Part shown: piece after piece, positions 26,681-48,893 of the stretch
How the letters are laid out: the number at the start of each line of letters is the position of its first letter
Numbering within the stretch: position 1 is the stretch's first letter
Assembly: GCF_004843725.1 (NCBI RefSeq)
Contig: NZ_CP039451.1
Location: 2,168,501 to 2,232,500 of the forward strand
DNA: 64,000 bases
Source: Psychroserpens sp. NJDZ02
GTDB lineage: Bacteria; Bacteroidota; Bacteroidia; Flavobacteriales; Flavobacteriaceae
Direction: 5' to 3'
Program-made: the position numbers and the translations under genes
The notes under the pieces: generated by a model
What the model was told of the DNA's origin: nothing
Seen by the model: the letters and a program-made list of their open reading frames with translations, nothing else
The model's database searches: none

Positions 26681-26709
26681 TATATTTGGTAAACCAGATT
26701 GGTAAACCA
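26681..26709 (+). promoter_or_regulatory. -7 element plus tandem TGGTAAACCA operator of alginate unit 1
   Basis: TATATTTG (26681-26688) is a perfect -7 element, and its last two bases start the first of two copies of TGGTAAACCA (26687-26696 and 26700-26709), spaced 13 bp start to start by GAT. Arms TGGT/ACCA suit a GntR/FadR-type dimer. The same arrangement occurs before the second PL6 gene and before susC. No TTG lies at the ideal 19 bp upstream. A bound repressor would cover the -7 element and start site. Confidence 0.75.
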
Positions 26710-26797
26710 GTTAAGGTTAGGGTTAAAAAAGCACACTATTTTTATCATATGTAGTTGCTCGTTTGTCACAGTGATAAGGCAACTTCTCGCAGTTACA

Positions 26798-26935
26798 ATG
26801 GAGGTAGAAGATGTTGGTGATAATAATGCGCCAGAAGAAACAGACTTGGGGTTAGATGTATGGAATTACTTGACAATTATAAATGCAGATGCTTTTTGTT
26901 ACGCTAAATACTATGATTTAGTTGTGACACATTAA
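26798..26935 (+). CDS. Doubtful small ORF in the leader of alginate unit 1
   Basis: Forty-five codons from an ATG at 26798, giving an acidic peptide that begins MEVEDVGDNNAPEE and ends AKYYDLVVTH. It lies within the predicted 5' leader, between the operator promoter and the first PL6 gene. The frame extends upstream to a TTG inside the operator, which is unlikely to be a start. I recognise no family. It could be a leader peptide, the remnant of a decayed gene or chance. Confidence 0.2.
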   Translation: MEVEDVGDNNAPEETDLGLDVWNYLTIINADAFCYAKYYDLVVTH

Positions 26936-27007
26936 AATAATAATAACCAGGTCTTTTAATAAAATAATAGACTTTTATCTTTTATAAAAACAACACTATT
27001 AATACTT

Positions 27008-29344
27008 ATGAAAAAAACAGTATATATTTTAGTTTTATCTCTTTTCCTTATCTCTTGTGGAAAAAAAACAATAACAACACAAGCTAGTGTTACTACGGTA
27101 TCTAATATAGAAGCATTAAATAGCGCTATTAAAGATGCTAAGCCTGGTGATAATATTGTGTTGGCTAATGGAACTTATAAGGATTTTGAAATAAAATTTA
27201 GAGGAAAAGGAACTGAAGACAATCCAATAACCTTAAAGGCGGAAACGGCAGGTAAAGTGTCCATTGAAGGACAGTCGTATTTGAAATTTGGAGGGGAATA
27301 CTTAGTGGTTGAAGGGTTGCATTTTAAAAATGGATTTTCACCATCTAGTGCTGTAATAGATTTTAAAATTAGTCATAAGGATGCGCCGGATGAAATCGCT
27401 GACCATTGTAAGGTGACTAATTGTGTTATTGAAGATTTTAATAAGCCTAAAAGGGATAATAGTGATTTATGGGTGCAATTTTGGGGAAGACATAATGAGT
27501 TGAGCAATAGTTATATTGCAGGTAAAACAAACAGAGGCCCAACAGTAAGAGTTAGTATAGAAGGTGTTGAAAGTATTAATAATTATCATCAAATTATTAA
27601 TAATCATTTTGGACCAAGACCTGTAAAAGGTGGGCCAAGCGGAGAAACTATTCAATTAGGTAATAGTTATACGTCTATGTCTCCAAGCCATACTATGGTT
27701 GCTAATAATTTATTTGAAGAATGTAATGGTGAAGTTGAGGTGATTTCTAGTAAAACTAATTTCAACGAGTTTAGAAATAATGTGTTTTATAAAAGTGAGG
27801 GGTCTTTAGTGACACGTCATGGTAATTACTGTAAAATCGATGGGAATTATTTTATAGGTGATGGTGTAAACGAGAATTATGGTGGGATTAGAATAATTAA
27901 CACAGGGCATTGGGTTACAAATAATTTCTTTTACAATTTAAAAGGGAAAAGCTTTAGAAGTCCTTTAGCGGTTATGAATGGAATTCCTAAATCACCATTA
28001 AACCGTTACAACCAAGTCACAGATGTGGTTGTTGCTTATAATACTTACGTTAATTGTAGTTCGCCTTGGCAATTTGGTGTGGGTACAAATATCGCGCAAG
28101 CGGATGTGTTACCAAAATCAGAAATTAGATCGGCTCGAGCAATTAGAACAACGGTTGCTAATAACGTTGTGTATAATGAAAAAGGGTTGGAAGCTATTGT
28201 TGTGGAAAACGATAAAGCAGACGGTGTAACATTTGTAAATAATGTAGTCGATAATAAAGGCGTGTCGTTTAATGATTTTGATGGTGGTATTATAGCGGCC
28301 TCTTTAGAGTTGAAAAAGTTAACGGATAATCTGTTTTTACCAATAGGAGTTCCTGAAGAAATAAAAGCTTATAAAGGTTTCGATTTTAATACGATTGAGA
28401 AAGACTTATTTGGAACGTCAAGAATAGATAATACCAGTATTGGTGCAGTAATCGGCACAGAGGTTGGTAGTCCTAATATTTTGGATAAATCTAAATACGG
28501 AACAACTTGGTATTCAAATGAAGCAGAAGTGAAAGCTCCAGTAACGCATGTTGTAAACGAAGCAGAGGATTTACAAGCTAAAATAAATGAAGCTAATAGT
28601 GGGGATATTATCGCTATAGCGGAAGGTAGTTATGCTTTTAAGAAGGCTTTAATAATTAATAAAGCAATTACAATACAATCTCAAGGAGAAAAGAAGGCTA
28701 AGTTAGTATATGTGGGACCGTCTGAGACACCATTGTTTTCATTGCAATCTAAAGGTAAATTAACAATTAATAATATTGTTTTAGAAGGGAATGAAAATAA
28801 TTATGCCTTTGCAAGTTTAAAAGAAAACATGGCTAACCACTTCGGTCTAACAGTTTCAAATACTGAAATTAGTGATTTTGACTATGTGTTAAAAGTGTAT
28901 AAAGAATCATTTTCAGAGCGTATTACTTTTGAGAATACGGCAATCACAAACTGTGAAAATGGATTAGAATTATCAGAGGAAACCAACGATAAAGGAGATT
29001 ATAATACAGAGTATTTAACCATTAATAACTGTCATTTTGATAATGTAAAAGCAAATGTGATTGATTATTATAGAGGGGGGTATGACGAGTCTACTATCGG
29101 CGGAAACCTTCTAATCACGAATAGTACTTTTATTAATTGTGGAGCTAAAGAAAAGAACAAAACATTATTGAATCATAACGGGATTGTAAATGTGAATATC
29201 ACTAAAAACACATTTAAAAACAACAAAGTACAGTTTGTCTCTACATTATGGGGAGCAAAAAATAATGTAGAGTCCGAAAACACTCTAGTTAATTCAGGGC
29301 AAATTAACACGGAAGAGAATTTGAAAATGAAATTGATGTATTAA
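27008..29344 (+). CDS. PL6-family alginate lyase, lipoprotein (first copy)
   Basis: Predicted surface or periplasmic alginate lyase of 778 residues. Lipobox LISC with Cys17. The N-terminal catalytic parallel beta-helix (about 28-400) is of the chondroitinase B/PL6 type, with the conserved segments NHFGPRPVKGGPSGETIQLG, EVEVISSKT (candidate base Lys249) and LVTRHGNYCKIDGNYFIGDG (candidate acid Arg270), and Glu213, Glu242 and Glu244 as likely calcium ligands. A second beta-helix of unknown role covers about 500-778. It starts unit 1 and is followed two bases later by a heparinase II/III-type lyase. It is a paralogue of the PL6 gene at 34897. Confidence 0.9.
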   Translation: MKKTVYILVLSLFLISCGKKTITTQASVTTVSNIEALNSAIKDAKPGDNIVLANGTYKDFEIKFRGKGTEDNPITLKAETAGKVSIEGQSYLKFGGEYLVVEGLHFKNGFSPSSAVIDFKISHKDAPDEIADHCKVTNCVIEDFNKPKRDNSDLWVQFWGRHNELSNSYIAGKTNRGPTVRVSIEGVESINNYHQIINNHFGPRPVKGGPSGETIQLGNSYTSMSPSHTMVANNLFEECNGEVEVISSKTNFNEFRNNVFYKSEGSLVTRHGNYCKIDGNYFIGDGVNENYGGIRIINTGHWVTNNFFYNLKGKSFRSPLAVMNGIPKSPLNRYNQVTDVVVAYNTYVNCSSPWQFGVGTNIAQADVLPKSEIRSARAIRTTVANNVVYNEKGLEAIVVENDKADGVTFVNNVVDNKGVSFNDFDGGIIAASLELKKLTDNLFLPIGVPEEIKAYKGFDFNTIEKDLFGTSRIDNTSIGAVIGTEVGSPNILDKSKYGTTWYSNEAEVKAPVTHVVNEAEDLQAKINEANSGDIIAIAEGSYAFKKALIINKAITIQSQGEKKAKLVYVGPSETPLFSLQSKGKLTINNIVLEGNENNYAFASLKENMANHFGLTVSNTEISDFDYVLKVYKESFSERITFENTAITNCENGLELSEETNDKGDYNTEYLTINNCHFDNVKANVIDYYRGGYDESTIGGNLLITNSTFINCGAKEKNKTLLNHNGIVNVNITKNTFKNNKVQFVSTLWGAKNNVESENTLVNSGQINTEENLKMKLMY

Positions 29345-29345
29345 T

Positions 29346-31568
29346 ATGAAGTCAATAACACTACTTTTTATAAGTTTATTAGGATGGTTTCAAACTGTTG
29401 AAGGGCAAACGATACCTTCTGATAAGGTTTTGTCTAATCAAGATTTAGCATCTTATTTAACAAGCACTGTTCAACAAGATTTAAAAACTAACGGAGCTAT
29501 TTCTGAAGCGGACTTAGCACGGTTTTTTAGAACAAAATTTACGGAACGTTATTTCTATAATTGGGAAACTAACGAGAAGCGATTTAAGGAATACACAGAG
29601 ATTTATCCTGAGGCCAAAATAAATCATACAGAACGCGCATTGGATCATTTGGCAAAATTTCCCGCGAAAGCGCAATGGGAATTGCCTTTTAATTATCAAA
29701 ACGGAGATCCAGTAAATGCTTATGCTTTGCGCCATTTGGCTAGGCAGCATAAAATGATAGATATTGGATACTATTATTTTTACCAGAATAAAGACGAGCA
29801 ATATCTTGATTATTTTACAGAACAATTAGCGTCTTTAAATACAGCCTTAGTCAATAAACAATATGAACGTATTGAAGATGGTAATGGCGTGTATGAGGCC
29901 TTTCGTTCTGGATACCGTATGATTAATTGGTTGCAATTACACAGTTTGTTTTTAGGACAGTCTGGCTACTCTGATGCGGAGCAATTAGTGACCATTGCAA
30001 CGTTTTTACAACATGCGCAACATTTATATGAGCATAATAAAACGTTTAAATCGGGTAATCATCAAACACGAGGATTGTCGGCTTTAGCAATGCTGTCTAT
30101 TGTATTGAGAGATTTTAAAGGTGCGGACGAGTGGTATAAGCATTCTATGACGCTTTTAGGAGAGCACTTAGATAAAGAAATTAATGATGATGGGTTTCAG
30201 TTTGAGCGCACAATCCATTATCATATGAGTGATATAGGGACTTATTTTTATGTGTACCAATTAGCTAAGAAAAGCAAATTACCAATAAACCCGGTATGGG
30301 AAAACAAATTAGAGTCGTTATTTACAACACTTACTAAAATTGCATTTCCCGATAAATCAGCGCCTGTGTTGTCTGACGATACAGATGCACCTTGGGCCGT
30401 AAAAAATGATATTTCTGGAGCAATGACTTTAGGGTATTTGCTTTTTGAAGATCCTGAGATGGGATACTTTGCAAAGAATAAATTAAGTACAAAGTTTTAT
30501 TGGGATGCTAGTGCAGTACAGTTAGAGAAATTAAAAAATATTAATTCTGTAGCACCAAAACACTTGTCTTTGTCTTTTCCAGACACGGGCTATTATATAA
30601 TGCGAGAAGGTTGGAATGCTAAGGATAATATGATGGTGATTTCGGCTGGATTAGATCCTTTAAAGCCTGATCATCAACATGGTGATATTTTGGGTGTTCA
30701 AGCAATGGCTAATGGTCAAGTTGTATTACCAAATTATCAAGTCCGTTATTCATTAAAAGATTTAGAGTTGTTTAAAAACTCCATGACTAAAAATGTAGCT
30801 TTAGTCGATAACGAATTGCTTGGTAAACAATATACAAGTAATAAAGGAGGTAGCGGATTTGGTAAGTTTAAACAATTGGCACAACCAAAAGTAATTGCTT
30901 TTGATACTAGTGATCATTTAGATGTTTTTGTAGGTAGTCATGATGGTTTTGAAAACATTGGTGTAGACTATAACAGACAAGTTATTACTATTAAAAATGA
31001 TTTCTGGATTGTTAAGGATAATTTTAAGTCGAAAGACAGTCACGAATACAAACAAGTTTGGCAAGGACATTACACGGAAGAAAATGGTGCCGATTTATTG
31101 CGGTCTTCTTTTGATGATGGTTCAGGGTTGGATATTTTTCAGTTGAATACAATAGATAAAGTAGAAACAGACGGCGCAAGAGGTAAAGAGTGGTCTGTGG
31201 TGTCAAAATCGAATGCAAAACAATTCAGCTTTATAACAATTGTTTATCCTTTTGAAACTTATGACAAACGTATAGATGAGGATGCTAAAGATAAACAGTT
31301 TAGCGGTTGGAAGCTTAATGCTTCAAAGTGGATTGCTGATAATAGTGACGCTGTTTCTTTAACTAAAGAGGGGGTTTCTATGTTCTTTTCAGTTAAAACA
31401 TTAGAATTTGGTGATACTAAAATTAAGTTTGAAGAAGTTGTGGATGTGTTAGTGAATACTGGGGCTGAAGGGTTGAGGTTACAATTGCTTAGTAAAAAGG
31501 AATGTAAAGCTGAAATTACTCAGAAAGGGGTAAAGCAAAAAATTAAGTGTTCAGTAAAAGCTAATTAA
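29346..31568 (+). CDS. Heparinase II/III-family polysaccharide lyase, probably alginate-active
   Basis: Exported protein of 740 residues; signal peptide MKSITLLFISLLGWFQTVEG. An N-terminal alpha/alpha toroid covers about 30-390, and a heparinase II/III-type beta domain follows. Likely active-site segments are FKSGNHQTRG (Asn238-His239), DDGFQFERTIHYHMSD (Glu287, Tyr292, His293) and KPDHQHGDIL (His pair near 445). This layout matches alginate lyases of the PL17/PL39 type, but the sequence differs clearly from the PL17 protein at 37248, so PL39 or another heparinase II/III subfamily is possible. Substrate is inferred from the locus. It begins two bases after the PL6 stop, so the genes are tightly coupled. 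Confidence 0.75.
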   Translation: MKSITLLFISLLGWFQTVEGQTIPSDKVLSNQDLASYLTSTVQQDLKTNGAISEADLARFFRTKFTERYFYNWETNEKRFKEYTEIYPEAKINHTERALDHLAKFPAKAQWELPFNYQNGDPVNAYALRHLARQHKMIDIGYYYFYQNKDEQYLDYFTEQLASLNTALVNKQYERIEDGNGVYEAFRSGYRMINWLQLHSLFLGQSGYSDAEQLVTIATFLQHAQHLYEHNKTFKSGNHQTRGLSALAMLSIVLRDFKGADEWYKHSMTLLGEHLDKEINDDGFQFERTIHYHMSDIGTYFYVYQLAKKSKLPINPVWENKLESLFTTLTKIAFPDKSAPVLSDDTDAPWAVKNDISGAMTLGYLLFEDPEMGYFAKNKLSTKFYWDASAVQLEKLKNINSVAPKHLSLSFPDTGYYIMREGWNAKDNMMVISAGLDPLKPDHQHGDILGVQAMANGQVVLPNYQVRYSLKDLELFKNSMTKNVALVDNELLGKQYTSNKGGSGFGKFKQLAQPKVIAFDTSDHLDVFVGSHDGFENIGVDYNRQVITIKNDFWIVKDNFKSKDSHEYKQVWQGHYTEENGADLLRSSFDDGSGLDIFQLNTIDKVETDGARGKEWSVVSKSNAKQFSFITIVYPFETYDKRIDEDAKDKQFSGWKLNASKWIADNSDAVSLTKEGVSMFFSVKTLEFGDTKIKFEEVVDVLVNTGAEGLRLQLLSKKECKAEITQKGVKQKIKCSVKAN

Positions 31569-31580
31569 AATACAAAGCGA

Positions 31581-33464
31581 TTGAAAAAAGTAATATTTGT
31601 TATAGGTGTTTCAGGTTGTGGAAAAAGCACTATTGGAAAGTTGTTGTCTGAAGCATTAGATATTCCTTTTTTTGATGGTGACGATTTTCATCCGGAAAGT
31701 AATATTACAAAAATGTCTAATGGACAAGCTTTGAATGATGCTGACAGACAAGGTTGGTTAGAGACTTTAAATAACTTAGCAAAAAAGCAGCTTAATAAAG
31801 GAAGTTGTGTAATCGTATGTTCTGCTTTAAAGCAAAAGTATCGCGATTTATTAAGTCTTACTATTGAAGACGATACGGCTTGGGTGCATTTAAACGGGGC
31901 TTTTGATCAGATATTAGAAAGAGTAAATAGTAGAGCGGATCATTTTATGCCTGCCGAATTACTACAATCGCAATTTGATACTTTAGAAATTCCTAAAAAT
32001 GCGATTCAAATAGATATCAGTGCGACACCAGAAAATATTATTAAAATAATAAAACAAGAATTAATGAATACCTCAGAGTTTGGATTATTTGGTTTGGGTA
32101 TCATGGGAAAAAGCCTGTGTAGAAATTTAGCTAATAACGGTTTTAAAATTTCGATGTTTAACAGGCATGTCGATAGTGTAGAGGTTGATGTTGCTAAAAA
32201 TTTTAAAGCACAATATACTGAGTTGGCGCAAGCGGAAGCTTTTGATGATATTTCAGCCTTTGTAAATTCTTTACAACAACCAAGACGGATTATGCTAATG
32301 GTTAATGCGGGTAAAACAATAGATTATGTTATTGAAGATTTATTGCCTCATTTAACAAAAAATGATATCATAATTGACGGAGGAAATTCAAACTATAAAA
32401 AAACAAAAGAACGTTACGATTATTTAAAGACTAAGGGGGTTAATTTTATTGGGACAGGGGTTTCTGGTGGAGAAGAAGGAGCTTTAAAAGGACCATCTAT
32501 AATGCCAAGTGGTGATAAAGAAGCTTATGATAAAGTGGCGCCTTTTTTGGAAACTATTGCAGCTAAAGATAAAAACGGTTTGCCTTGTTGTACGTATGTC
32601 GGCCCAGAAGGAAGCGGTCAGTTTATTAAAATGGTGCACAATGGTGTGGAGTATGTAGAAATGCAATTGCTAGCTGAGGTAACTACTATTTTGGAGGCTT
32701 TAGGACAAAGTCCGGATGTAGTTGCTAATACTTTGGAGTCTTGGGCTGACACAGCAGATAGTTATTTACTAGAAATAACAACAGCTATTTTTAAAAAGAA
32801 AGAAGGCGACGATTGGCTGGTAAAAAAGATATTAGATAAAGCAGGTAATAAGGGGACGGGTAACTGGACGACGATTGCATCTGCGGAACTAGGAGTGCCA
32901 AGTACTTTAATTGCTTCAGCGTTGTTTTCAAGATATATTTCGTTTTATAAAGAGGAGCGAATGGAATTAAGTAAACGATTTAATTACAATACTAAATCAG
33001 ATTTAAAAATCAGTACTGATGAGGTCTTGAAAGGATATCAGTTTGCAAGAATTATTAACCATTATCAAGGGTTTAAGTTAATAGCAGAAGCTTCAAGTAA
33101 ATTTGAATGGGATTTAAATCTTAGTGAAATTGCTAGAATTTGGACTAATGGTTGCATAATTAGATCTTCTCTAATGGAGGAATTAGTTAGTGTGTTTAAG
33201 GATACAGCTAACTTATTAACTAATACAGAATTAATAACAAAGATTGATGGTTACAGACCTGCAGCTAAAAAGGTAGTGTCGGAAGCTGTTCTTAGTGATA
33301 TTGCAACACCGGCTCTAAGTGAAGCTGTTCAGTTTTTGAACGGAATAACAACAGAATATGCTTCGGCAAATGTAATCCAAGCTCAACGTGATTATTTCGG
33401 GGCGCATACGTATCTAAGGTTAGACGATGCTTCAGGTAAGTCTCATCATACCAAATGGAACTAA
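31581..33464 (+). CDS. Fusion: gluconokinase (GntK) and 6-phosphogluconate dehydrogenase (Gnd)
   Basis: One 627-residue frame starting at TTG 31581. Residues 1-161 are a complete GntK-type gluconokinase: P-loop GVSGCGKST at 9-17, FFDGDDFHPESN at 30-41 and a C-terminal RADHFMPAELLQSQFDTLE. Residues 162-627 are a full decarboxylating 6PGDH: GLFGLGIMG nucleotide-binding loop, IIDGGNSNYK, SGGEEGALKGPSIMPSG, GSGQFIKMVHNGVEY with the catalytic Lys, and the QRDYFGAHTYLR end. The join GAA TTA ATG has an internal ATG at 32064. The fused product would convert gluconate through 6-phosphogluconate to ribulose 5-phosphate and NADPH. It lies 12 bp after the lyase gene. Confidence 0.88.
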   Translation: MKKVIFVIGVSGCGKSTIGKLLSEALDIPFFDGDDFHPESNITKMSNGQALNDADRQGWLETLNNLAKKQLNKGSCVIVCSALKQKYRDLLSLTIEDDTAWVHLNGAFDQILERVNSRADHFMPAELLQSQFDTLEIPKNAIQIDISATPENIIKIIKQELMNTSEFGLFGLGIMGKSLCRNLANNGFKISMFNRHVDSVEVDVAKNFKAQYTELAQAEAFDDISAFVNSLQQPRRIMLMVNAGKTIDYVIEDLLPHLTKNDIIIDGGNSNYKKTKERYDYLKTKGVNFIGTGVSGGEEGALKGPSIMPSGDKEAYDKVAPFLETIAAKDKNGLPCCTYVGPEGSGQFIKMVHNGVEYVEMQLLAEVTTILEALGQSPDVVANTLESWADTADSYLLEITTAIFKKKEGDDWLVKKILDKAGNKGTGNWTTIASAELGVPSTLIASALFSRYISFYKEERMELSKRFNYNTKSDLKISTDEVLKGYQFARIINHYQGFKLIAEASSKFEWDLNLSEIARIWTNGCIIRSSLMEELVSVFKDTANLLTNTELITKIDGYRPAAKKVVSEAVLSDIATPALSEAVQFLNGITTEYASANVIQAQRDYFGAHTYLRLDDASGKSHHTKWN

Positions 33465-33498
33465 TAAAACAAACTAATCTTAAAAACTAACACATATT

Positions 33499-34773
33499 AT
33501 GGATGTAACAACACCTAAAAATTCATTTTTCAAAAAGATTATAGCTATCGTATTAGGTTTTGGTCCTGGTATTTTTGCTATTGGGTATACTATAGGTACT
33601 GGAAGTGTTACTTCAATGATTGTTGCAGGAAGTAAATTTAATATGCAATTATTGTGGGTGTTGCTTTTAAGTTGTTTGTTTTCTGGAATATTAATGTTTG
33701 CTTACGGAAACTATGGTTTGATAACAGGAGAAACAGCACTCTATGGTTTTAAAAAACATTTAAAATATGGTAAAGCTTTAGCTATCTTAATTATAGTTGG
33801 TATTACGTTTGGACAATGGAATTCTTTGATGGGGATTTTAGGGATTTCATCTAATATTATTTTTGAAATATTAGCAGTCAATTTTGAGGGATTGGGTGCT
33901 TATAAATATGAAACAGTTTTAATAACGGCGATTATAATTATTATTACGTTTTACTTATTGATGCTAGTTGGGAAGTATACTTTTTTTGAAAAAATATTAG
34001 TCATTTTTGTGACGTTAATGGGGTTTTCATTTTTGTTATCCTTATGTTTTGTGCAACCGCTTCCCTTAGATGTTGTTAAAGGGTTGATACCTACGATTCC
34101 GGATGTTCCAGGAGGTAAAATGTTAGTTGCGGCATTTGTTGGGACTACTATGGCGTCTGCTACATTTTTATCAAGACCATTATTTGTTAAAGGTAAAGGT
34201 TGGGACATTAAAAACTTAGGGCAACAAAAAAGAGATTCTATCACCGCAGCAATTTTAATATTTATAATTAGTGCAACTATTATGGCTGTAGCAGCTGGAG
34301 CCTTGTTTTATCAAGGAAAAGAAGTTAACAGTGTATTGGATATGGCTAATACTTTAGAGCCAGTTGCTGGAAAATGGGCTGTTACTATATTTTTCTTCGG
34401 AGCGTTAAGTGCTGGTTTGTCGTCTATATTTCCATGCCTTTTAATAGCGCCTTTATTGCTTGCAGATTATCAATCAGGAGAGTTAGATACAAGTTCTAAA
34501 CAGTTTAGAGTTGTAACTTTTGTAGCGTGTTTGGTAGCTTTGATCGGGCCTGCTTTTGGAGCAAACCCTATTGAAATTCAGATTTTATCTCAAGTGTTTA
34601 ATGTATTTGTTTTACCTCTTGTGATTTTGGGTATTATAATAATGGTGAATAGTAAAAAGGTTATGGGGAATTATAAAACCAGTCTTTTTGTCAATATTGG
34701 GTTGTTTGCAGCGTTGCTTTTTGCTTGTGTCATTTCTTATAATGGTATTATAGCCTTAACAGAATACTTTTAA
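33499..34773 (+). CDS. Divergent Nramp-fold membrane transporter lacking metal-site motifs
   Basis: Inner-membrane protein of 424 residues with about eleven hydrophobic segments and the overall order of Nramp/SLC11 transporters (GFGPGIF opening, LeuT-type fold expected). True Nramps have DPGN in helix 1 and MPH in helix 6. Here helix 1 reads GYTIGTGSVTS (about 29-39) and helix 6 reads GTTMASATFLSRPLF, so both metal-binding motifs are absent. The substrate may therefore not be Mn or Fe. It lies 34 bp after the gluconokinase-6PGDH fusion in the alginate locus. A sugar-acid substrate such as gluconate or a uronate product is a reasonable guess, with no direct proof. Confidence 0.7.
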   Translation: MDVTTPKNSFFKKIIAIVLGFGPGIFAIGYTIGTGSVTSMIVAGSKFNMQLLWVLLLSCLFSGILMFAYGNYGLITGETALYGFKKHLKYGKALAILIIVGITFGQWNSLMGILGISSNIIFEILAVNFEGLGAYKYETVLITAIIIIITFYLLMLVGKYTFFEKILVIFVTLMGFSFLLSLCFVQPLPLDVVKGLIPTIPDVPGGKMLVAAFVGTTMASATFLSRPLFVKGKGWDIKNLGQQKRDSITAAILIFIISATIMAVAAGALFYQGKEVNSVLDMANTLEPVAGKWAVTIFFFGALSAGLSSIFPCLLIAPLLLADYQSGELDTSSKQFRVVTFVACLVALIGPAFGANPIEIQILSQVFNVFVLPLVILGIIIMVNSKKVMGNYKTSLFVNIGLFAALLFACVISYNGIIALTEYF

Positions 34774-34839
34774 AATAGGTTGACTTTTTTGTGCATGGTC
34801 AAAATAGCATAGATTAGAGTTAAATGTCAATAGATTATT

Positions 34840-34890
34840 TTGGTTAGCATTAAAAATGCTTGTATATTGGTAAACCAATTTGGTAAACCA
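34840..34890 (+). promoter_or_regulatory. Promoter and tandem TGGTAAACCA operator of alginate unit 2
   Basis: TTG (34840-34842), 20-bp spacer, then TATATTGG (34863-34870, one mismatch to TAnnTTTG). The operator copies are at 34868-34877 and 34881-34890, again 13 bp apart (spacer ATT). The second copy ends six bases before the ATG of the downstream PL6 gene, so the leader is extremely short and repressor binding would block both the start site and the ribosome-binding region. Confidence 0.75.
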
Positions 34891-34896
34891 ATTTTT

Positions 34897-37245
34897 ATGA
34901 AAAAACAACCACTATTTTCGCTTTTATTAATCGTCTGTTTATTTGTTTCAATTTCTTGTAAAGAAAAAGAGTCTGCTACTAATAGATTGTTAGTTAAAGA
35001 TGTAGCTGAGTTTAATACTGCTGTTAAAAAGGCAAGTCCAGGTGATATTATCACTTTAGCTAATGGTATTTGGAAAGATGCTGAATTGGTTTTTGAAGGT
35101 CACGGAACTACAGAAAAGCCTATTACTTTAACAGTAGAAACTAAAGGAGAGGTGACTCTAGAAGGGGCTTCAAATCTTCAATTGGCAGGAGAACATTTAA
35201 TTGTTAATGGTCTTGTTTTTAAAAATGGGTATACCCCAACAAATGCCGTTATTTCATTTAGAAAAAACAGAGAAGAATTAGCTAATAATACAAGATTAAC
35301 AGAGTGTGTTATTGATAATTTTAATAATCCAGAGCGTCAAGTGCAAGATTATTGGGTCACTATCTACGGAAAAAATAATCGCATAGATCACAATCATATT
35401 TCAGGTAAAAAGAATTTAGGGGTGACTATGATTGTCGGTTTGGATACAAAAGAAAGTGTACAAAACAATCATAAAATTGATCATAATTATTTCGGACCAC
35501 GTCCAACCTACGGAAACAATGGTGGCGAAACATTGCGTATTGGTACCAGTCATACGGCATTAGAAAATTCTAAAACGTTAGTAGAATCTAACTATTTTGA
35601 TAGAACTAACGGAGAACACGAAATTATCTCAAATAAATCGTGTCAAAATACTTTTAAATACAATACCTTTTTTGAATGTACAGGCACCTTAACGATGCGT
35701 CATGGAAATGAAACTTTGGTAGATGGGAATGTGTTTATAGGCAACGGAAAACCAAGTACTGGAGGTGTACGTATCATTAATGAATCACAAACTGTAATTA
35801 ATAATTACCATGTTGGATTAACGGGCTATCGTTTTAGAGGTGCTTTTGTAATGATGAATGGTGTGCCAAATTCGCCACCAAATCGTTACGTACCTGTTAT
35901 AGATTCTAAGCTAAATAATAACACGTTTGTAAATTGTGATCATATTCAATTAGGTGCAGGTAGTGATTCTGAAAGAAGTCAAGCGCCAAGAACGTCAGAG
36001 ATTTCAGGAAATATCTTTTATAATGACACTAAAGACGACACATTTACGGTGTATGATGATATTAGTGGCATTACATTTAAAGATAATCTTTTAGGTACAA
36101 ATGGTAAAACCAGTATTACTAGCGGCTTTGAAAACGCAGAAATAACATTAGTAAAAAACGAACAAGGATTTTTAATACCGACTTCGGATAAAATTAAATC
36201 TAAAGTTACTATAAGTCCAAATGTCGCAACCAAAGAAAATACAGGGACGACTTGGTACTCTAAGGCAGATACAAACATTGCTTTAAATTCTGGTAAAACA
36301 ATAAAAGTTAAAGCGGGTATTAATACACTGTATGAAATTGTTAAGGAGTCTGAAGCTGGCGATATAATAGAATTAGAAGAAGCTGGTATTTATCTAATTA
36401 CTAAAGCAGTTCAGATTAAGCACCCTTTAACTTTTAAAACTTCAGGAACAAAAAAAGCAACGATTTTATTTGAACGTATGATGGCTTTCGAAATTCAGAA
36501 TGGTGGAAGTTTATCTTTAGAGAATGTATCGTTTGATGGTACAAAATCACCGGATTACGCAGGTAATTCAGTGATAAGCACAAGTAAAAATTCTATGTTA
36601 GATAATTACAAATTGTTTATTGATAATTGCGAGTTTAAAGATATGGTGGTTAATCATTCTTTTGATGTCTTACGAGTGTCTAAAGGGACATTTGCAGATA
36701 CAATTAGTATTCAAAATTCTACTTTCAAAAATATATCAGGACATATTGCGGCATTAGACAAGGAAACTGATGACATTGGAGCTTATAATGTAGAATACAT
36801 GTTAATGAAAAACAATACGGTTAACGATATGCAAGGTGCTGCATTACGATTATACAGAGGCGGAAAAGACGAAAGTACATTCGGACCGTTTCTAGAAGTC
36901 GATCATAATGTCTTTAATAATGTAGGTTTTGGTAAGAAAAACAAATACAAAGCAGCAATGTCTTTATATGGTGTGCAAGTAAATGATATCCAGAATAATA
37001 ATTTTAATAATACTAAGGGTTTAAAAATGCACCTAGTTGTTGGAGAGCCCATTGTAAACGTAGTTAATAATAACTATTATAAGTCTGGTGAAATTGAAGT
37101 TACTGGAGACGAGAAATATAATGTAGAAAATCTTTATAGTATTGAGCCTGAGTTTAAGGAAGGAACATTTCAACTATTAGAGGAGTCTTCATTACGAGGG
37201 AAAGGGACAGATAAAAAAGAAATAGGAATTATTGCTAAAAACTAA
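34897..37245 (+). CDS. PL6-family alginate lyase, lipoprotein (second copy)
   Basis: Alginate lyase of 782 residues from ATG 34897; the frame is open from 34840, but that part is the promoter and operator. Lipobox SISC with Cys21. Catalytic beta-helix with NYFGPRPTYGNNGGETLRIG, EHEIISNKS (candidate base Lys247) and LTMRHGNETLVDGNVF (candidate acid Arg268), then a second beta-helix from about 500. Domain order equals that of the 27008 gene, but the sequences differ widely, so the duplication is old and the two may prefer different linkages (guluronate blocks or alternating blocks). It is followed after two bases by the PL17 gene. Confidence 0.9.
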   Translation: MKKQPLFSLLLIVCLFVSISCKEKESATNRLLVKDVAEFNTAVKKASPGDIITLANGIWKDAELVFEGHGTTEKPITLTVETKGEVTLEGASNLQLAGEHLIVNGLVFKNGYTPTNAVISFRKNREELANNTRLTECVIDNFNNPERQVQDYWVTIYGKNNRIDHNHISGKKNLGVTMIVGLDTKESVQNNHKIDHNYFGPRPTYGNNGGETLRIGTSHTALENSKTLVESNYFDRTNGEHEIISNKSCQNTFKYNTFFECTGTLTMRHGNETLVDGNVFIGNGKPSTGGVRIINESQTVINNYHVGLTGYRFRGAFVMMNGVPNSPPNRYVPVIDSKLNNNTFVNCDHIQLGAGSDSERSQAPRTSEISGNIFYNDTKDDTFTVYDDISGITFKDNLLGTNGKTSITSGFENAEITLVKNEQGFLIPTSDKIKSKVTISPNVATKENTGTTWYSKADTNIALNSGKTIKVKAGINTLYEIVKESEAGDIIELEEAGIYLITKAVQIKHPLTFKTSGTKKATILFERMMAFEIQNGGSLSLENVSFDGTKSPDYAGNSVISTSKNSMLDNYKLFIDNCEFKDMVVNHSFDVLRVSKGTFADTISIQNSTFKNISGHIAALDKETDDIGAYNVEYMLMKNNTVNDMQGAALRLYRGGKDESTFGPFLEVDHNVFNNVGFGKKNKYKAAMSLYGVQVNDIQNNNFNNTKGLKMHLVVGEPIVNVVNNNYYKSGEIEVTGDEKYNVENLYSIEPEFKEGTFQLLEESSLRGKGTDKKEIGIIAKN

Positions 37246-37247
37246 TC

Positions 37248-39536
37248 ATGACATTTAATAAAAACTTCATATTAAGATTTGCTTTAGTCGCGATTGTATT
37301 GACTGCGTTTTCTTGTAAAAAAGAAAATGCAGCGCATACAAATAGTAAAGCGGAAACGGCGACAACAATAAAAACAACAATGCATCCTAATTTGATTTTA
37401 ACTGCTCGAGGCGTTAAAGATATTAGAGCGCAATTAGGGAGTATTCCTATTTTTGATACAACCCTAAAAACGGTGCAAGAAGAAATAGATGCCGAGATTG
37501 CATTAGGTATTGAGACACCGATTCCATTAGATTATTCTGGAGGTTATACGCATGTACGTCATAAACGTAATATGGTTGTATTGCAAAAAGCGGGTGTGTT
37601 ATATCAAATTTTGGATGACGAAAAATATGCTAAGTATGTAAAGGATATGTTGATGCAATATGAGGCTATGTATAAAACATTACCACTGCATCCAAAAACT
37701 AGATCGTATGCAAGAGGTAAATTGTTTTGGCAGTGTTTAAACGATGCTAATTGGTTAGTGTACGTGAGTCAAGCTTATGATTGTGTTTATAATTATTTGT
37801 CCGAAGAAGAGCGTACTAAGCTAGAGACAAATTTGTTTAAGCCATTTGCAGATCATATTTCTGTAGATAGTCCACAGTTTTACCAAAGAGTGCATAACCA
37901 TAGTACTTGGGGTAATGCAGCAGTAGGTATGATTGGTTTGGTGATGGACGATCAAGAATTAATTGATCGTGCTCTGTACGGTATTAAAGATTTAAAATTA
38001 GATACTGAAGAAAAAGATGATGATGGCGGGTTTTTAAATAAAGATGGTAAAGCTGGTTTTTTAGCGAATATCGAAGAGCCATTTTCTCCAGATGGTTATT
38101 ATAATGAAGGGCCATATTATCAACGCTATGCAATGTATCCGTTTTTAGTTTTTGCTGAAGGATTACATAATGTTAAACCAGAATTAAAGATTTTTGAGTA
38201 TAAAAATGGGGTGTTATTAAAATCCATTAATGCGCTTTTGAACTTATCAGATGCAGATGGTGATTTTTTTCCGCTTAATGATGGTCAAAAAGGAATGTCT
38301 TACTATAATGATGCTTTAGTTACAGCAGTAGATATTTCATATCATTTTGGAAATCAGGATGCAGGATTATTAAGTGTAGCAGAGAAACAGGACAAAGTGT
38401 TATTGGACGACTCGGGGTTAGCAGTAGCGCTCGGGATTAAAAATGGCGAAACAATACCGTTTGATAAAAAATCGATTAATTTATCTGATGGGCCAAATGG
38501 AACACAAGGTGGTGTTGGTATTTTGAGAAATGAACCATTAGAGCTTGTTTTTAAATATGCAGCTCAAGGATCTAGCCATGGTCATTATGATAAGTTGTCA
38601 TATTCTTTATATGAAAATGGAGAAGAAGTTATTCAAGATTATGGTTTAGCACGTTTTGTAAATATTGAACAAAAAGGAGGCGGAAACTATCTAAAGGAAA
38701 ACAAGACCTGGGCAAAACAAACGATAGCTCATAATACAGTAACGCAAAATGAAGCGTCTCATTTTAACGGTAAATACGAAATAGGAAGTAAACACCATTC
38801 CGTATTACACTATTTTTCTTCAGACCATGCAGGTGTGCAAGTCGTAAGTGCAAAAGAAGTAAATGCTTATCCTGGGACAGAAATGCTTCGTACTATGGCG
38901 ATTATCAAAGATCCAGATTTCGAAAAACCATATGTGTTGGATATTATGAAAATTATATCCAATAAAGTCAATCAATATGATTTCCCATATTACTTTTTTG
39001 GTCAAGTATTAGCTGCAAATTTTGAATACAAAACACCAGAAACGTTGAAACCATTAGGAAGTAAAAATGGGTATCAACACTTATATGTGGAGGCGACTGC
39101 CAAAGCTTCGGACGTTAATAGTAAATTTTCGTGGTTAAATAATCGTAAGTTTTATACCTTAACCACGGTGACTAATGCTGAGGATGATTTGATGTTTACT
39201 AGAATAGGAGCAAACGATCCTGAGTTTAATTTACGTCGGGACCCTGCATTGTTATTAAGACGAAAAAACACTAAGAACACACTTTTTGTGTCTACTATAG
39301 AAGCACATGGTAGTTATAGTCCTGTTTCAGAATCTGCTGTAAATTCAAATAGTAATATAAAAGAATTGAAAGTTGTTTTAGATACTGAAGAATATACCGC
39401 AATTGCAATAACTGATATAAACAGTGTTACTAAACTTTTTATAACAGCAAATAAAAAGGCTTCAGAAGAAGCAAAGCATACTTTAAAAATCAATGGTGTT
39501 GAATACCAATGGAGTGGTGCTTATTACTTTGAATAA
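37248..39536 (+). CDS. PL17-family oligoalginate lyase, lipoprotein
   Basis: Exolytic lyase that turns alginate oligomers into unsaturated monomer, which opens to DEH. Lipobox FSC with Cys23. The alpha/alpha toroid covers about 45-390 and a heparinase II/III-type beta domain the rest of 762 residues. Active-site segments of the Alg17C type are QRVHNHSTWGNAAVGM (Asn217-His218), SPDGYYNEGPYYQRYAMYPF (Tyr near 284-291) and QGSSHGHYDKLSYSL (His445/His447). A probable periplasmic location fits the tethered lipoprotein. It sits between PL6 and KdgF, starting two bases after PL6 stops. Confidence 0.92.
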   Translation: MTFNKNFILRFALVAIVLTAFSCKKENAAHTNSKAETATTIKTTMHPNLILTARGVKDIRAQLGSIPIFDTTLKTVQEEIDAEIALGIETPIPLDYSGGYTHVRHKRNMVVLQKAGVLYQILDDEKYAKYVKDMLMQYEAMYKTLPLHPKTRSYARGKLFWQCLNDANWLVYVSQAYDCVYNYLSEEERTKLETNLFKPFADHISVDSPQFYQRVHNHSTWGNAAVGMIGLVMDDQELIDRALYGIKDLKLDTEEKDDDGGFLNKDGKAGFLANIEEPFSPDGYYNEGPYYQRYAMYPFLVFAEGLHNVKPELKIFEYKNGVLLKSINALLNLSDADGDFFPLNDGQKGMSYYNDALVTAVDISYHFGNQDAGLLSVAEKQDKVLLDDSGLAVALGIKNGETIPFDKKSINLSDGPNGTQGGVGILRNEPLELVFKYAAQGSSHGHYDKLSYSLYENGEEVIQDYGLARFVNIEQKGGGNYLKENKTWAKQTIAHNTVTQNEASHFNGKYEIGSKHHSVLHYFSSDHAGVQVVSAKEVNAYPGTEMLRTMAIIKDPDFEKPYVLDIMKIISNKVNQYDFPYYFFGQVLAANFEYKTPETLKPLGSKNGYQHLYVEATAKASDVNSKFSWLNNRKFYTLTTVTNAEDDLMFTRIGANDPEFNLRRDPALLLRRKNTKNTLFVSTIEAHGSYSPVSESAVNSNSNIKELKVVLDTEEYTAIAITDINSVTKLFITANKKASEEAKHTLKINGVEYQWSGAYYFE

Positions 39537-39560
39537 ATTAATCCTTAAATAAATAAAAAA

Positions 39561-39935
39561 ATGAATCGATCTAGTGAAAAATACGTCATTACAAAAGACA
39601 TGGAATGGGAAGTGCTTGGTGGTGGTGTGTCAAGAAAATTTTTAGGTTATGATAATCAAATTATGATGGTCAGAGTAAAATTTGACGAGGGCGCATTAGG
39701 TGCTCCGCATCAACATTTTCATACGCAAGCGACTTACTGTGTTTCGGGTAAATTTGAATTTGAAATTGATGGCGTAAAACAAATTGTAGAAGCGGGAGAT
39801 GGTGTATATATTGAGCCTAATTTATTGCACAGTGCTGTATGTTTAGAAGAAGGTGAGTTAATAGATACATTCAGTCCTGTAAGAGAAGATTTTTTAAGCG
39901 GAGCTGAGGTCTCTTATTTTGGAGATAAGAAGTAA
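39561..39935 (+). CDS. kdgF: KdgF-type cupin (unsaturated uronate ring-opening enzyme)
   Basis: Single-domain cupin of 124 residues. KdgF speeds the conversion of 4,5-unsaturated uronate monomers released by lyases into the open-chain keto form (DEH). The metal-binding pattern is visible as GAPHQHFHTQATY (His50, His52 and Gln56) and the later His90 in EPNLLHSAV. The ending TFSPVREDFLSG is typical of the KdgF group. There is no signal peptide, so it acts in the cytoplasm, or at least not as an exported protein. It is the last gene of unit 2, 24 bp after the PL17 gene. Confidence 0.88.
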   Translation: MNRSSEKYVITKDMEWEVLGGGVSRKFLGYDNQIMMVRVKFDEGALGAPHQHFHTQATYCVSGKFEFEIDGVKQIVEAGDGVYIEPNLLHSAVCLEEGELIDTFSPVREDFLSGAEVSYFGDKK

Positions 39936-40176
39936 AGTGAATTGACTGACTAGTGAGAAACGTTAAAATCGGTTTTATTTGACTCATAAGTTGAGTGAAA
40001 ATCCAAACTATTTTGCCAAAGAAAGCAATTAGTGTCAAGTAATAATTTTGATAAATTTGTTTAATCTTGTATATGAAGACTTTATAGAATAGTAATGAAA
40101 CACTTATTTTCTGTGTGATTCTTTACTATTTTAACTTAAACATGTGGTTTTTTAACATAGAAAAATCACGAAAACG

Positions 40177-40227
40177 TTGTAATTAACAAATATTTATATA
40201 TATTTGGTAAACCAATCTGGTAAACCA
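40177..40227 (+). promoter_or_regulatory. Promoter and tandem TGGTAAACCA operator of susCD (alginate unit 3)
   Basis: TTG (40177-40179), exactly 19 bp, then TATATTTG (40199-40206): a perfect Bacteroidetes promoter. The operator copies are at 40205-40214 and 40218-40227 (spacer ATC, 13-bp repeat), so the first copy overlaps the end of the -7 element. The susC ATG is about 200 nt downstream of the expected start site. Confidence 0.8.
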
Positions 40228-40256
40228 ATTATGTTTATTGGGTTAAAACCATAAAA

Positions 40257-40361
40257 AAAGGACAGATTAAAAAATCTATCCTTTAAAAAAAAACACTTCT
40301 TTGACGGGAAGTAATTATGTTAAAAACATAACATTACAAAAGTAACAAACAAATTGTTACT
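40257..40361 (+). other. Structured 5' leader of susC (run of hairpins)
   Basis: Successive inverted repeats: 40257-40284 (12-bp stem with one mismatch), 40295-40312 (5 bp), 40315-40331 (TTATGTT/AACATAA) and 40341-40361 (AGTAACAA/TTGTTACT). None is followed by a T run. They lie between the promoter and the susC ATG and could affect mRNA stability or translation. Confidence 0.5.
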
Positions 40362-40421: not shown

Positions 40422-43400
40422 ATGAATTTAAAAGCTAAATCAGCACTATTTGCAATGCTCTTCATGTGTATTGCTGCTTTTGCTCAAGACGGTGTGACGA
40501 TTAAGGGAACAGTGGTTGATGTCGAGTACAGTATGCCATTGCCCAACGTTAATGTTATTGTTGTAGGAACGACTAATGGTGCAAGTACAGATTTTGATGG
40601 TCAATATCAAATAAAAGTGAAGTCTGGAGATGTTTTACAATTCTCATATATAGGGTACACGGCTCAAACAGTTGTAGTTGGTGATCAAAAGACAATTGAT
40701 GTATCCTTAAGTGTGGATGCTAATACTTTAGAAGAAGTTGTTGTTGTTGGATATGGTACACGAAAAAAATCACATCTTACAGGAGCAGTATCTAGCCTTG
40801 GTGGAGATGATGTTGCAGGTGTTCAGGCTACGCGAGTTGATGAAGCTTTAGCGGGTAAACTACCGGGGGTTTTAATTCAAAACCAAAATGGATCACCTGG
40901 TGCGGATCCTAAAATTCAAATTAGAGCGGCATCATCTATTTCTGGTAATTCTAGCCCGTTAATAGTTGTTGATGGTTTTCCTATTTCAGGTAGTTTAGCT
41001 ACTGTTAATCCAAATGATATTGAAAGTTTAGAGGTTTTAAAGGATGCGGCTTCTGCTGCTATTTATGGTTCTAGAGGTGCAAATGGTGTTATATTAATTA
41101 CAACCAAAAAAGGAAAGTCAGGTAAAGCGACTTTTAGTTATAATACTTACACAAGTACATCTAGTAAATACAGAAAAAATATTCTTAAGTCTGGTACAGA
41201 ATGGGCAGCTCACGCAAGAGAGGAAATTGCTGCAGGTAATTGGGCAGGTACGGTAGATACTGTTGATCCTGATTTTTTAGAGTATAGGCTAAGTGCTTAT
41301 GAAGATTCTCCAGGTTCAATTAGTCCAGAAGATTGGTTGTTTCGTGATGGTAATTCTATGAGTCATGATTTTAATATGAGTGGCGGGTCTGATGATGTAA
41401 GCTTTTTTGCTTCAATTGGGTATCAGAAAGTAGAAGGTGTTGTTATTACAGAAGGTTATGAGCGGTTAAATGCACGTTTAAATATTGATGCTAAGTTAGG
41501 AGATAAATTTAAGACAGGAGTAAGTTTTAATGGGTTTACATCTGATAGAGATATTTTAGGGCATGATATGAGGGATTTATTAAGGTCAACACCTGTAACA
41601 CCTATTTATCATACAGCAGAGTCTATTGCATTCGTGCAACAATTAGATTCACAAGCACAAGCTTTAGGTTTAGAAGCTTTTGATGATGGATATAGAGGGT
41701 CTGGTTACGAGGCAAATAGTATTTATACTTTGGAGCCAGGTATGGCGGCTCAAGATTGGCATTATGGAAGAAATAATAATGGTATTGGTGGTTCTGGTGA
41801 TGCTGGTCCTGCAGCAAAGCTTGATAATACAGAACGTTGGGAAAAAACATTTTTCGGGAATGTAAGTTCTTATTTACAATATAGTATTGTCGACGGTCTT
41901 GATTTAAAAACTGTTTTAGGTGGAGATCTTAAGGATACACAGTATTATGAGCATAGATTAATTGGTTATGATTCTAGAGCTAGGACGGCTCAAACATATA
42001 TGGATCAGACGGATTTAAAGGTGTCATCAGTGTTAAGTGAAACAACTTTAAGTTTTGCTAAAGAGTATGGTAAACATGACATTTCAGCAGTTGCGGGAAT
42101 AGAATTTCAAACAACAAAATATCAAGGGACAGCATTAGATGGTGTAAATGTACCTGATGGAGATGTGTTAAATTATAACTTATTTGATCCTGCGGATATA
42201 ACTGTAACAGAAAGAGATGAAACAAGAGCAAGAGAGAGTGTGTTTGGTAGAGTAAGTTATGCTTATGATGATCGTTACTTAGTATCTGCATCTGTAAGAA
42301 GGGATGGAGATTCTCGTTTTGGAGCGAATAAACAATATGCTACTTTTCCAGCATTTTCATTAGGATGGAATGTCCACAAAGAATCGTTTTTAGAAGAAAG
42401 TGAAACATTGAGTAAATTAAAATTAAGAATGAGTTATGGGTCTTTAGGAACGACTTCTTTTTTAGGATCTTATGATGCATTGAGTTTGTTGGATCCTTCA
42501 GCAACATTTTTTGGAACAGGTTTTTTAATACCTGATAATGTTGCAAATTTAGATTTGACTTGGCAAACTAATACTGAAACTAACTATGGTGTAGATTTCG
42601 GAGTTTTAAATAATCGTTTTACAATTGGTGTAGATTACTATACTTCAGATATTGAAGATATCCTTATTAATCAAAGTGTTTCGGAAGTGTTAGGGACGTC
42701 TTCTATTGTTCTTAATTCAGGTGATGTAAGAAGTTCTGGTTGGGAATTTGAATTAAATGCAAGAGTCATAAGTAATGATAATTTTAGTTGGAGTTTTGGA
42801 GCTAATTTATCTACTGTTGAAACAGAAATCACAGATTTAGGAGGACTTTCAGAATTACCTCAAACAATTTATGGAGTAAGTGGAAGAGGACCTGTATATA
42901 GAAACTATGTAGGAGGAGGAATTGGTGAGATGTGGGGATTAGAAACTATTGGTGAGGTTGAAATGACTTATTTGGCTGATGGTTCAAGAAGTCCAAATAA
43001 CCAATCTGGAGAATCTTATGTTGTAGATCAAAATGGAGATGGTGTAATTGATAACACTAGAACTGTTGAAGATGGGGGAGATTTAGTGAAAATTGGACAA
43101 AACACACCAGATTTTTATTGGGGTATGTCTCATAATTTCACCTATAAGGATTTTGATATGTCTTTACAGATTCAAGGTTCTCATGGAGCGGATGTTTATA
43201 ATGTAGATCCTTTATACTATGGTTCACAATGGGGAGGAAGATTAGTTGATAGCTTTGACGCTAATAATGACGGTATTGCTGATCATAATGGTGAGTTTTA
43301 CACACCAAACAGAAATCAAACAGATGCAAGTTTACAAGATGCTTCTTTTGTAGCATTAAAAAACTTAACTATTGGATATACACTTCAACAAGATGTTGTT

Positions 43401-43604
43401 GATAAAATAGGGTTAAGTTCTATTAGAGCTTATGTAGCGGCAACTAATTTATTGTATTTATGGGCGGATGATTATACTTCTTATAATCCTGAAGGAGTTA
43501 GTACTTCTGGTGGTGATTATTTAGGACCAACGACATACGGAACACAATTTGGAGCTAGTCCAATTGTTAGAAGTTTTACAGTAGGATTAAATGTTAATTT
43601 TTAA
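40422..43604 (+). CDS. SusC-type TonB-dependent outer-membrane receptor
   Basis: Oligosaccharide importer of 1060 residues, here presumably for alginate oligomers. Signal peptide MNLKAKSALFAMLFMCIAAFAQ, carboxypeptidase-D regulatory-like domain at about 25-98 (IKGTVVD through DVSLSVD), the SusC hallmark LEEVVVVGYGTRKK at 103-116, plug domain at about 117-230 with LAGKLPGVLI and SIYG-type SAAIYGSRGANGVILITTKKG, then a 22-strand barrel ending PIVRSFTVGLNVNF. It works with the SusD lipoprotein that begins 12 bp downstream and with TonB-ExbBD encoded elsewhere. Control by the operator upstream is inferred. Confidence 0.95.
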   Translation: MNLKAKSALFAMLFMCIAAFAQDGVTIKGTVVDVEYSMPLPNVNVIVVGTTNGASTDFDGQYQIKVKSGDVLQFSYIGYTAQTVVVGDQKTIDVSLSVDANTLEEVVVVGYGTRKKSHLTGAVSSLGGDDVAGVQATRVDEALAGKLPGVLIQNQNGSPGADPKIQIRAASSISGNSSPLIVVDGFPISGSLATVNPNDIESLEVLKDAASAAIYGSRGANGVILITTKKGKSGKATFSYNTYTSTSSKYRKNILKSGTEWAAHAREEIAAGNWAGTVDTVDPDFLEYRLSAYEDSPGSISPEDWLFRDGNSMSHDFNMSGGSDDVSFFASIGYQKVEGVVITEGYERLNARLNIDAKLGDKFKTGVSFNGFTSDRDILGHDMRDLLRSTPVTPIYHTAESIAFVQQLDSQAQALGLEAFDDGYRGSGYEANSIYTLEPGMAAQDWHYGRNNNGIGGSGDAGPAAKLDNTERWEKTFFGNVSSYLQYSIVDGLDLKTVLGGDLKDTQYYEHRLIGYDSRARTAQTYMDQTDLKVSSVLSETTLSFAKEYGKHDISAVAGIEFQTTKYQGTALDGVNVPDGDVLNYNLFDPADITVTERDETRARESVFGRVSYAYDDRYLVSASVRRDGDSRFGANKQYATFPAFSLGWNVHKESFLEESETLSKLKLRMSYGSLGTTSFLGSYDALSLLDPSATFFGTGFLIPDNVANLDLTWQTNTETNYGVDFGVLNNRFTIGVDYYTSDIEDILINQSVSEVLGTSSIVLNSGDVRSSGWEFELNARVISNDNFSWSFGANLSTVETEITDLGGLSELPQTIYGVSGRGPVYRNYVGGGIGEMWGLETIGEVEMTYLADGSRSPNNQSGESYVVDQNGDGVIDNTRTVEDGGDLVKIGQNTPDFYWGMSHNFTYKDFDMSLQIQGSHGADVYNVDPLYYGSQWGGRLVDSFDANNDGIADHNGEFYTPNRNQTDASLQDASFVALKNLTIGYTLQQDVVDKIGLSSIRAYVAATNLLYLWADDYTSYNPEGVSTSGGDYLGPTTYGTQFGASPIVRSFTVGLNVNF

Positions 43605-47887: not shown

Positions 47888-47951
47888 TTAGACATTAATA
47901 ATTTAGATAATAATTGAATAAAGAATAAATTAAATTTAAACACATATAAAA

Positions 47952-48716: not shown

Positions 48717-48773
48717 TTAAATTTAAAGTAGAATATTTAGCCATTAGCTAAATTGTAAAGTAAATTTAAGTAT

Positions 48774-48867: not shown

Positions 48868-48893
48868 AATACAATAGTAATCTAATTTATAAA

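Follow-up and report, generated by a model that had tools for sequence, protein, structure and literature searches.

Three paired sites in an alginate locus of Psychroserpens sp. NJDZ02 are very probably, judging from their sequence and distribution, the operators of an AusR-type GntR/FCD repressor encoded in the same locus at position 45421. The analysed window is a stretch of 64,000 nucleotides (2168501-2232500 of the single 4,319,537-base contig); positions refer to the window unless the whole genome is named. A 0-mismatch motif scan located TGGTAAACCA at 26687, 26700, 34868, 34881, 40205 and 40218, all on the plus strand, and found no further perfect copy elsewhere in the 64,000 nucleotides. 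The copies form three pairs with a 13-bp period and the spacers GAT, ATT and ATC. With up to one mismatch, 21 matches were obtained in the window (the exact ones included), whereas 100 shuffles averaged 4.95 and never exceeded 10.

26681..26709, plus strand: promoter/operator 1, with -7 box TATATTTG (26681-26688) and units 26687-26696 and 26700-26709; upstream of the PL6a operon
34863..34890, plus strand: promoter/operator 2, with -7-like box TATATTGG (34863-34870) and units 34868-34877 and 34881-34890; upstream of PL6b-PL17
40199..40227, plus strand: promoter/operator 3, with -7 box TATATTTG (40199-40206) and units 40205-40214 and 40218-40227; upstream of susC
45421..46122, plus strand: AusR-type GntR/FCD regulator, 233 aa (Pfam domains)

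An earlier note on this DNA had described these pairs with their spacers, placed them on or just after -7 elements and ahead of PL6, PL6 and susC, and seen no other double copy in the window. All of this was confirmed, by the exact scan, by the three boxes overlapping unit 1 and by the domain assignment of the genes. Its wording of a "three-copy" operator was right for the number of places and wrong for the copy number, which is two units at each place. At operator 2 the PL6b ATG (34897) lies 6 bases past the array; at operator 3 a possible -33 element, TTG at 40177-40179, was read by eye.

Arrays in the whole genome

Motif scans covered the whole 4.32-Mb genome. The exact double site TGGTAAACCA-N3-TGGTAAACCA occurs at three places, all inside the alginate locus. 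Single matches to the unit pattern TGGTNNACCA are uninformative, because their frequency is at background (99 vs 94 for the reversed control pattern); two lone TGGTATACCA palindromes, at 10745 and 49031, were set aside for this reason. Pairs of TGGTNNACCA at 13 bp, by contrast with the approximately 0.002 expected from 99 random sites (own arithmetic), number five exact cases. These are the three window doubles and the pairs of a triple array, TTGGTAAACCAATCTGGTGTACCAGATTGGTTTACCAA, at genome positions 3881307-3881344, which is 1.65 Mb past the window end and upstream of an unlinked PL7 alginate lyase gene. Read on the minus strand, the triple array has a TATATTTG -7 box at the same offset as the window arrays; the lyase ATG (L088:9280) follows 27 bases downstream, and the protein carries PL7 alginate lyase and CBM6 domains. 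Each of the four arrays of this genome overlaps a -7 box. A genome-wide abundance of the double motif away from alginate genes had been named in the earlier note as refuting its reading; the scan did not refute it, every exact 13-bp array being found to adjoin alginate genes. The nearest mismatched array candidate outside alginate genes (genome position 3365271, 2 mismatches) was dropped as it lies inside an open reading frame (ORF), and looser candidates were seen at 4223009 (3 mismatches) and 1899714 (2 mismatches, scored against a looser pattern). A literature search with the motif letters listed titles on primers and unrelated text.

Co-occurrence of the arrays with the regulator

The protein encoded at 45421 consists of a GntR winged helix (PF00392, residues 14-77) and an FCD domain (PF07729, residues 102-224), both above the Pfam cut-offs, and its gene stands beside susCD, lyase genes and a KDG-type pathway. 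Its closest named relative, in a scan that may omit the window's own species, is from Olleya namhaensis (90% identity). TGGTNNACCA fits the FadR-subfamily consensus, being a palindrome with TKGT/ACMA boxes and a GT-AC distance of 2 (3 or 2 allowed; 2 is known from some groups of the subfamily), in agreement with the FadR-type TGGT/ACCA-like arms recognized earlier.

AusR homologues, defined as matches to the 45421 protein at E <= 1e-40, were then set against arrays in a sample of 397 genomes of the family. The homologue was present in 103 genomes and an exact array in 98; 97 had both, one had the array only, six had AusR only and 293 had neither (Fisher p = 4e-84, kinship ignored), and the reversed pattern gave 0 arrays in the rows of one of the underlying scans. 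The six AusR-only genomes each carry two to six one-mismatch arrays (reversed control 0 or 1), with the unit TGGAAAACCA in five of the six. One-mismatch arrays were found in 2 of 60 AusR-negative genomes tested (of 294), equal to the 2/60 of the reversed control and hence background. In the one genome that has an exact array but no AusR homologue, the spacer is AAG, which is otherwise uncommon (4/116 spacers in relatives' arrays), and this array was taken as chance. Among 295 genomes sampled from the class, the array occurs in three, i.e. the window's own genome, one of the same family and one of another family (G480); in the last, an AusR homologue with 52% identity is encoded approximately 310 bp away from it. 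Co-occurrence and the FadR-subfamily type of the motif thus both support the suggestion of the earlier note that the GntR/FCD protein is the likely ligand.

Array layout in related loci

The layout of the arrays was evaluated in the loci of the best 80 of 370 relatives of the regulator, taken with their flanks from one scan of named genomes (1.56 Mb; no Zobellia record is among the 80). Distances between TGGTNNACCA units were 13 bp in 111 pairs, 26 bp in 25 and 39 bp in two, with no other distance up to 175 bp. Of the 101 arrays in the 80 loci, 84 consist of two perfect units, 16 of three and one of four, and in the eight arrays that skip a position the intervening unit has one mismatch. When spacers of 0-12 bases were allowed in the whole genomes of 60 of the 103 AusR genomes, 148 of 149 pairs had 3 bases (reversed control: 1). 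The four-unit array (L028:4240-4288), perfect and with a 13-bp pitch, stands before susC and exceeds by one the triple reported for AusR.

The phase relative to the promoter is similarly strict. In 93 of the 101 arrays the first base of a TAnnTTTG -7 box is 6 bases ahead of unit 1, and TAnnTTGG stands at 5 bases in another six, as in window operator 2, so that unit 1 overlaps the -7 box in 99/101. TT(G/T) is visible 22 bases ahead of the -7 box in 84 aligned arrays. The box TATATTGG of operator 2 is one base nearer the array than usual, a shift that recurs at PL17 promoters in five relatives. In F. psychrophilum, a motif of related form, TAnnTTGY (SM5), is assigned to a likely alternative sigma factor.

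Since the -7 box is placed at -12 to -5 from the transcription start in PMC9723704, unit 1 would span roughly -6 to +4 and unit 2 roughly +8 to +17; by the same placement the susC sense start is estimated at ~40211 and its leader at ~211 nt. Going by these estimated positions, the placement of the arrays is a repressor layout. FadR can both activate and repress. The arrays might in principle be activator sites through which AusR activates instead of repressing, for which we found nothing direct in favour; with unit 1 on the -7 box in 99/101 arrays, which is the position of a repressor, and with AusR described as a repressor in the papers cited below, we regard such activation as extremely improbable.

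A SusC match lies downstream of 74 of the 101 arrays, and the other targets are mainly PL17, PL7, MFS and secreted proteins. Where no neighbouring gene was obvious, a scripted search downstream of 14 arrays yielded 13 ORFs; Pfam analysis of 10 of these identified four PL7 lyases and six proteins with only a Por secretion-tail domain. The Por-only proteins, of 306-411 aa, are encoded directly under AusR arrays in six relatives and are candidates, by this position, for new alginate-active or alginate-binding proteins.

L028:172-1407, L031:15585-16733, L053:18949-19875, L056:19035-19973, L059:319-1428, L067:19040-19960: Por-only proteins (Pfam)

The operator before ausR and the possibility of another binder

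A single unit lies 21-40 bp ahead of the ausR start in 46 of the 80 relatives, with the letters TGGTTAACCA in 44 of these, as expected for autoregulation. One further match, at -71 before ausR in L057, was the 47th and was left out of the count; five relatives have a second unit, with one mismatch, 13 bp upstream of the ausR unit. The window's own ausR has no TGGTNNACCA in the 90 bp upstream of its start (45330-45420), and autoregulation looks to have been lost or moved in this lineage.

This missing operator leaves some room for another DNA-binding protein, e.g. a second FadR-type regulator encoded elsewhere, that would read the arrays while ausR merely travels along, the more so as many FadR-subfamily regulators have sites with TGGT/ACCA arms and linked genes are inseparable by co-occurrence. 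We nevertheless consider such a binder very unlikely. AusR genomes carry the exact array in 97 of 103 cases and a one-mismatch array in the remaining six, vs an exact array in 1/294 of the others; a single unit of the same motif precedes ausR in more than half of the relatives' loci; no transcription-factor family besides GntR was detected among the locus genes scanned (20 of 48 ORFs); and the published behaviour of AusR agrees with the arrays.

Some observations weigh against the assignment of the arrays to AusR and its repression. Apart from the bare ausR promoter of the window, the exact array is absent from four genomes of the class with AusR homologues of 47-50% identity, and two of the 101 arrays, both from Cellulophaga, are off the -7 phase. 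The co-occurrence could come from the locus travelling whole and would then fit any regulator of the locus, and the statement that GntR is the only transcription-factor family covers 20 of 48 ORFs. The protein at 45421 also lacks the N-terminal extension that NanR uses for cooperativity.

Proposed mechanism of repression

From the motif sequence, the alginate-only distribution, the spacing and phase and the co-occurrence that we observed, we infer binding, repression, an inducer and cooperativity in the following manner. Each 10-bp TGGTNNACCA unit would take one dimer of the AusR-type repressor, with the units stacked at exactly 13 bp, and the strict pitch argues for contacts between dimers or via the DNA and is compatible with the cooperative binding suggested in the earlier note. 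With unit 1 on the -7 box (estimated -6 to +4) and unit 2 on the initially transcribed region (~+8 to +17), the bound repressor would block RNA polymerase. Alginate breakdown products in the cytoplasm would cause its release, upon which four promoters may fire together, i.e. those of the PL6a operon, PL6b-PL17, susCD and, via the triple array, the unlinked PL7 lyase.

Genes of the alginate locus

The domain scan of the locus covered 20 of the 48 ORFs listed for the window and assigned the following genes.

27008..29344, plus strand: PL6a, PL6 alginate lyase homologue, first gene under operator 1
29346..31568, plus strand: heparinase II/III-fold protein, under operator 1
34897..37245, plus strand: PL6b, AlyGC-like PL6 alginate lyase homologue, first gene under operator 2
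37248..39536, plus strand: PL17 alginate lyase homologue, with a score below the NCBIfam oligoalginate lyase cut-off
40422..43604, plus strand: SusC-like TonB-dependent transporter, under operator 3
43617..44954, plus strand: SusD-like protein, after susC
46262..50592, plus strand: MFS transporter, SDR (candidate DEH reductase), PfkB kinase (candidate KDG kinase) and KDPG aldolase (domain scans)

Under operator 1 the gene order is PL6a, heparinase II/III-fold protein, a gluconokinase/6-phosphogluconate dehydrogenase fusion and an Nramp-type transporter. The genes after PL6a (29346-34773), including the fusion enzyme and the Nramp-type metal transporter, are odd company in an alginate operon. 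The MFS-SDR-PfkB-KDPG aldolase genes form, by their domains, a probable monomer pathway, for which no double array of its own was found in the window.

A candidate antisense RNA in the susC leader

Between operator 3 and the susC start lies a conserved module that reads, on the minus strand, as a -7 box, a hairpin with a C-rich loop and a terminator stem followed by a U-run. On the basis of its sequence features we read it as a DonS-like candidate antisense RNA, with a predicted length of ~80 nt in the window and 72-102 nt (median 90) over an alignment of 51 rows, i.e. the window and 50 relatives (start estimated).

40253..40332, minus strand: candidate antisense small RNA, ~80 nt, with estimated start 40332, hairpin 40312-40295, terminator stem 40284-40257 and U-run to ~40253
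40337..40344, minus strand: -7 box TACTTTTG of the candidate antisense RNA (alignment of 51 rows)

Of 74 susC leaders of relatives located behind an array, 49 contain the terminator pattern; one more was picked up with a looser pattern, and a covariance model brought in those of L014 and L031. The remaining 22 are devoid of the module, and 19 of these leaders are shorter than 140 nt.

We asked which strand the module favours, as it might instead act within the sense susC leader, as an attenuator or other structured element, or be a two-way terminator, with no antisense RNA made. Its stem has near symmetry and its plus strand a run of 3-6 T at the end; in the first hairpin neither strand is favoured, with pairing alike on both (333 minus vs 330 plus of 356 cells). 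The terminator, by contrast, has standard pairs in 555/561 cells on the minus strand vs 509/561 on the plus strand and 48 G-U pairs vs 2, and in 39 of 51 rows one position is a U-G pair for the minus strand and C-A for the plus strand. Stem stability favours the minus strand in 44 rows and the plus strand in five, with two ties, and the U-run is 6-8 long on the minus strand in 42/51 rows vs 4-5 on the plus strand in 44/51. Upstream, TA..TT is fixed on the minus strand in 51/51 rows amid varying bases, with the full TAnnTTTG in 40/51; no clear minus-strand -33 element was seen by eye. The covariance model, too, matches the plus strand, more weakly, in 15 of 71 cases, and the leaders that lack the module would likewise suit a sense-leader element. 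Weighing the two sides, we regard an element of the sense transcript or a two-way terminator as rather unlikely and favour the antisense RNA.

RNAalifold reported double changes at four stem pairs, and the covariation score was 0.122 vs 0.088 (SD 0.006) when shuffled and <= 0.060 when slid; as the shuffles keep column make-up and not relatedness, the 0/500 that reached it is no probability. One of five covariation measures, further pair types, does not stand out, being reached by 106/500 shuffles.

On the minus strand the covariance model detected 55 of the 80 relatives' loci and the window, including L014, L029, L031, L052 and L055 from outside the training set, with no match in L088 (the record with the PL7 start) or L089. 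It has one match in the window's genome. In the family sample, matches at E <= 1e-6 were found in 83/397 genomes, namely in 83 of the 103 with AusR and in 0 of the 294 lacking it; some family genomes are evidently of the same species as training loci (identical scores), and the family test is therefore not fully independent. All 85 strong matches are on the ausR contig, 84 of them within 20 kb, and 85/85 on the strand opposite ausR. At looser thresholds, 20 (E <= 0.001) and 38 (E <= 0.01) AusR-negative genomes gave chance matches. Linkage to the locus explains the co-occurrence of RNA and AusR even with no function involved.

No Rfam family matched 40253-40332 above its gathering score, the Rfam matches in the window being two tRNAs and Flavo-1. 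The Flavo-1 RNA (RF01705) lies at 54033-54123 on the minus strand and scored 52.0 bits vs a gathering score of 42. By title, no report of such an RNA at alginate loci appeared among the papers listed in the literature searches, which did not extend to supplementary files and most subscription papers.

Together, these features make it reasonably likely, as far as sequence can tell, that susC is under two stacked controls in many marine Flavobacteriaceae: an AusR array in fixed phase with the -7 box and, inside the leader, a small antisense RNA gene convergent with susC, with a switch-like response. With AusR on the operator, the antisense RNA would be made freely and mop up leaky susC message; once alginate frees the promoter, sense transcription would cross the antisense promoter and shut it off, resulting in a sharp switch.

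Implications

The operator grammar (unit, 13-bp pitch and fixed -7 offset) is strict enough to list the alginate regulons of marine flavobacteria from DNA alone, and such lists take in unlinked lyases as well as secreted proteins of unknown function under arrays. The regulon is of a known kind, in this case with an exact operator grammar and a triple array at an unlinked lyase, and the candidate antisense RNA gene beside the susC operator may be a new part. If true, the antisense candidate would add a second, RNA-level control of alginate uptake, and DonS-type control, described in gut Bacteroides, would exist as a conserved single-polysaccharide family in alginate-degrading marine bacteria.

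Comparison with known systems

AusR of Zobellia galactanivorans was reportedly treated by Dudek et al. in 2020 (Nucleic Acids Res 48:7786). According to three other papers, AusR is a GntR repressor that controls alginate use in this species, its operators occur in single, double or triple copies, and alginate products stop its binding (PMC8286568, PMC8073546, PMC7874173). The system described here likewise has a GntR-family regulator of an alginate system and multi-copy operators (three doubles and one triple, with singles before the relatives' ausR), and differs in that the ausR promoter of the window lacks the operator that most of the 80 relatives' loci have there. Judged by these data, the arrays would belong to the known kind of AusR regulon already described in Zobellia.

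Escherichia coli NanR, a FadR-type GntR repressor and a well-studied multi-dimer relative, places several dimers on close repeats of fixed spacing; these sites are direct GGTATA repeats, and cooperativity needs an N-terminal extension of 32 residues (PMC8012715). The arrays share the closely repeated sites and fixed spacing of this system, whereas their units are palindromic and the helix-turn-helix of the 45421 protein starts from residue 14, aligned to residue 32 of NanR 6on4. FadR-subfamily operators in general are described as TKGT/ACMA boxes accompanied by further, weaker ones at 7-12 nt from the centre of the site, and the table of that study, as we interpret it, holds no Bacteroidetes regulator of the subfamily (PMC4494728). 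In the arrays the next half-site is similarly ~10 nt from the centre (own arithmetic), but the extra box is here a full second or third operator.

For the leader module, the nearest parallel is the DonS-type antisense RNAs of Bacteroides susC genes, on which Cao et al. are said to have reported in 2016. Such RNAs are described as 78-128 nt long, opposite susC genes and lowering their expression (PMC7366714), with 15 loci carrying them in B. fragilis (PMC9723704). The candidate resembles them as a predicted RNA of ~80 nt opposite the 5' region of a susC homologue, and differs from them in being one sequence family for one substrate, across genera, adjoining a repressor operator.

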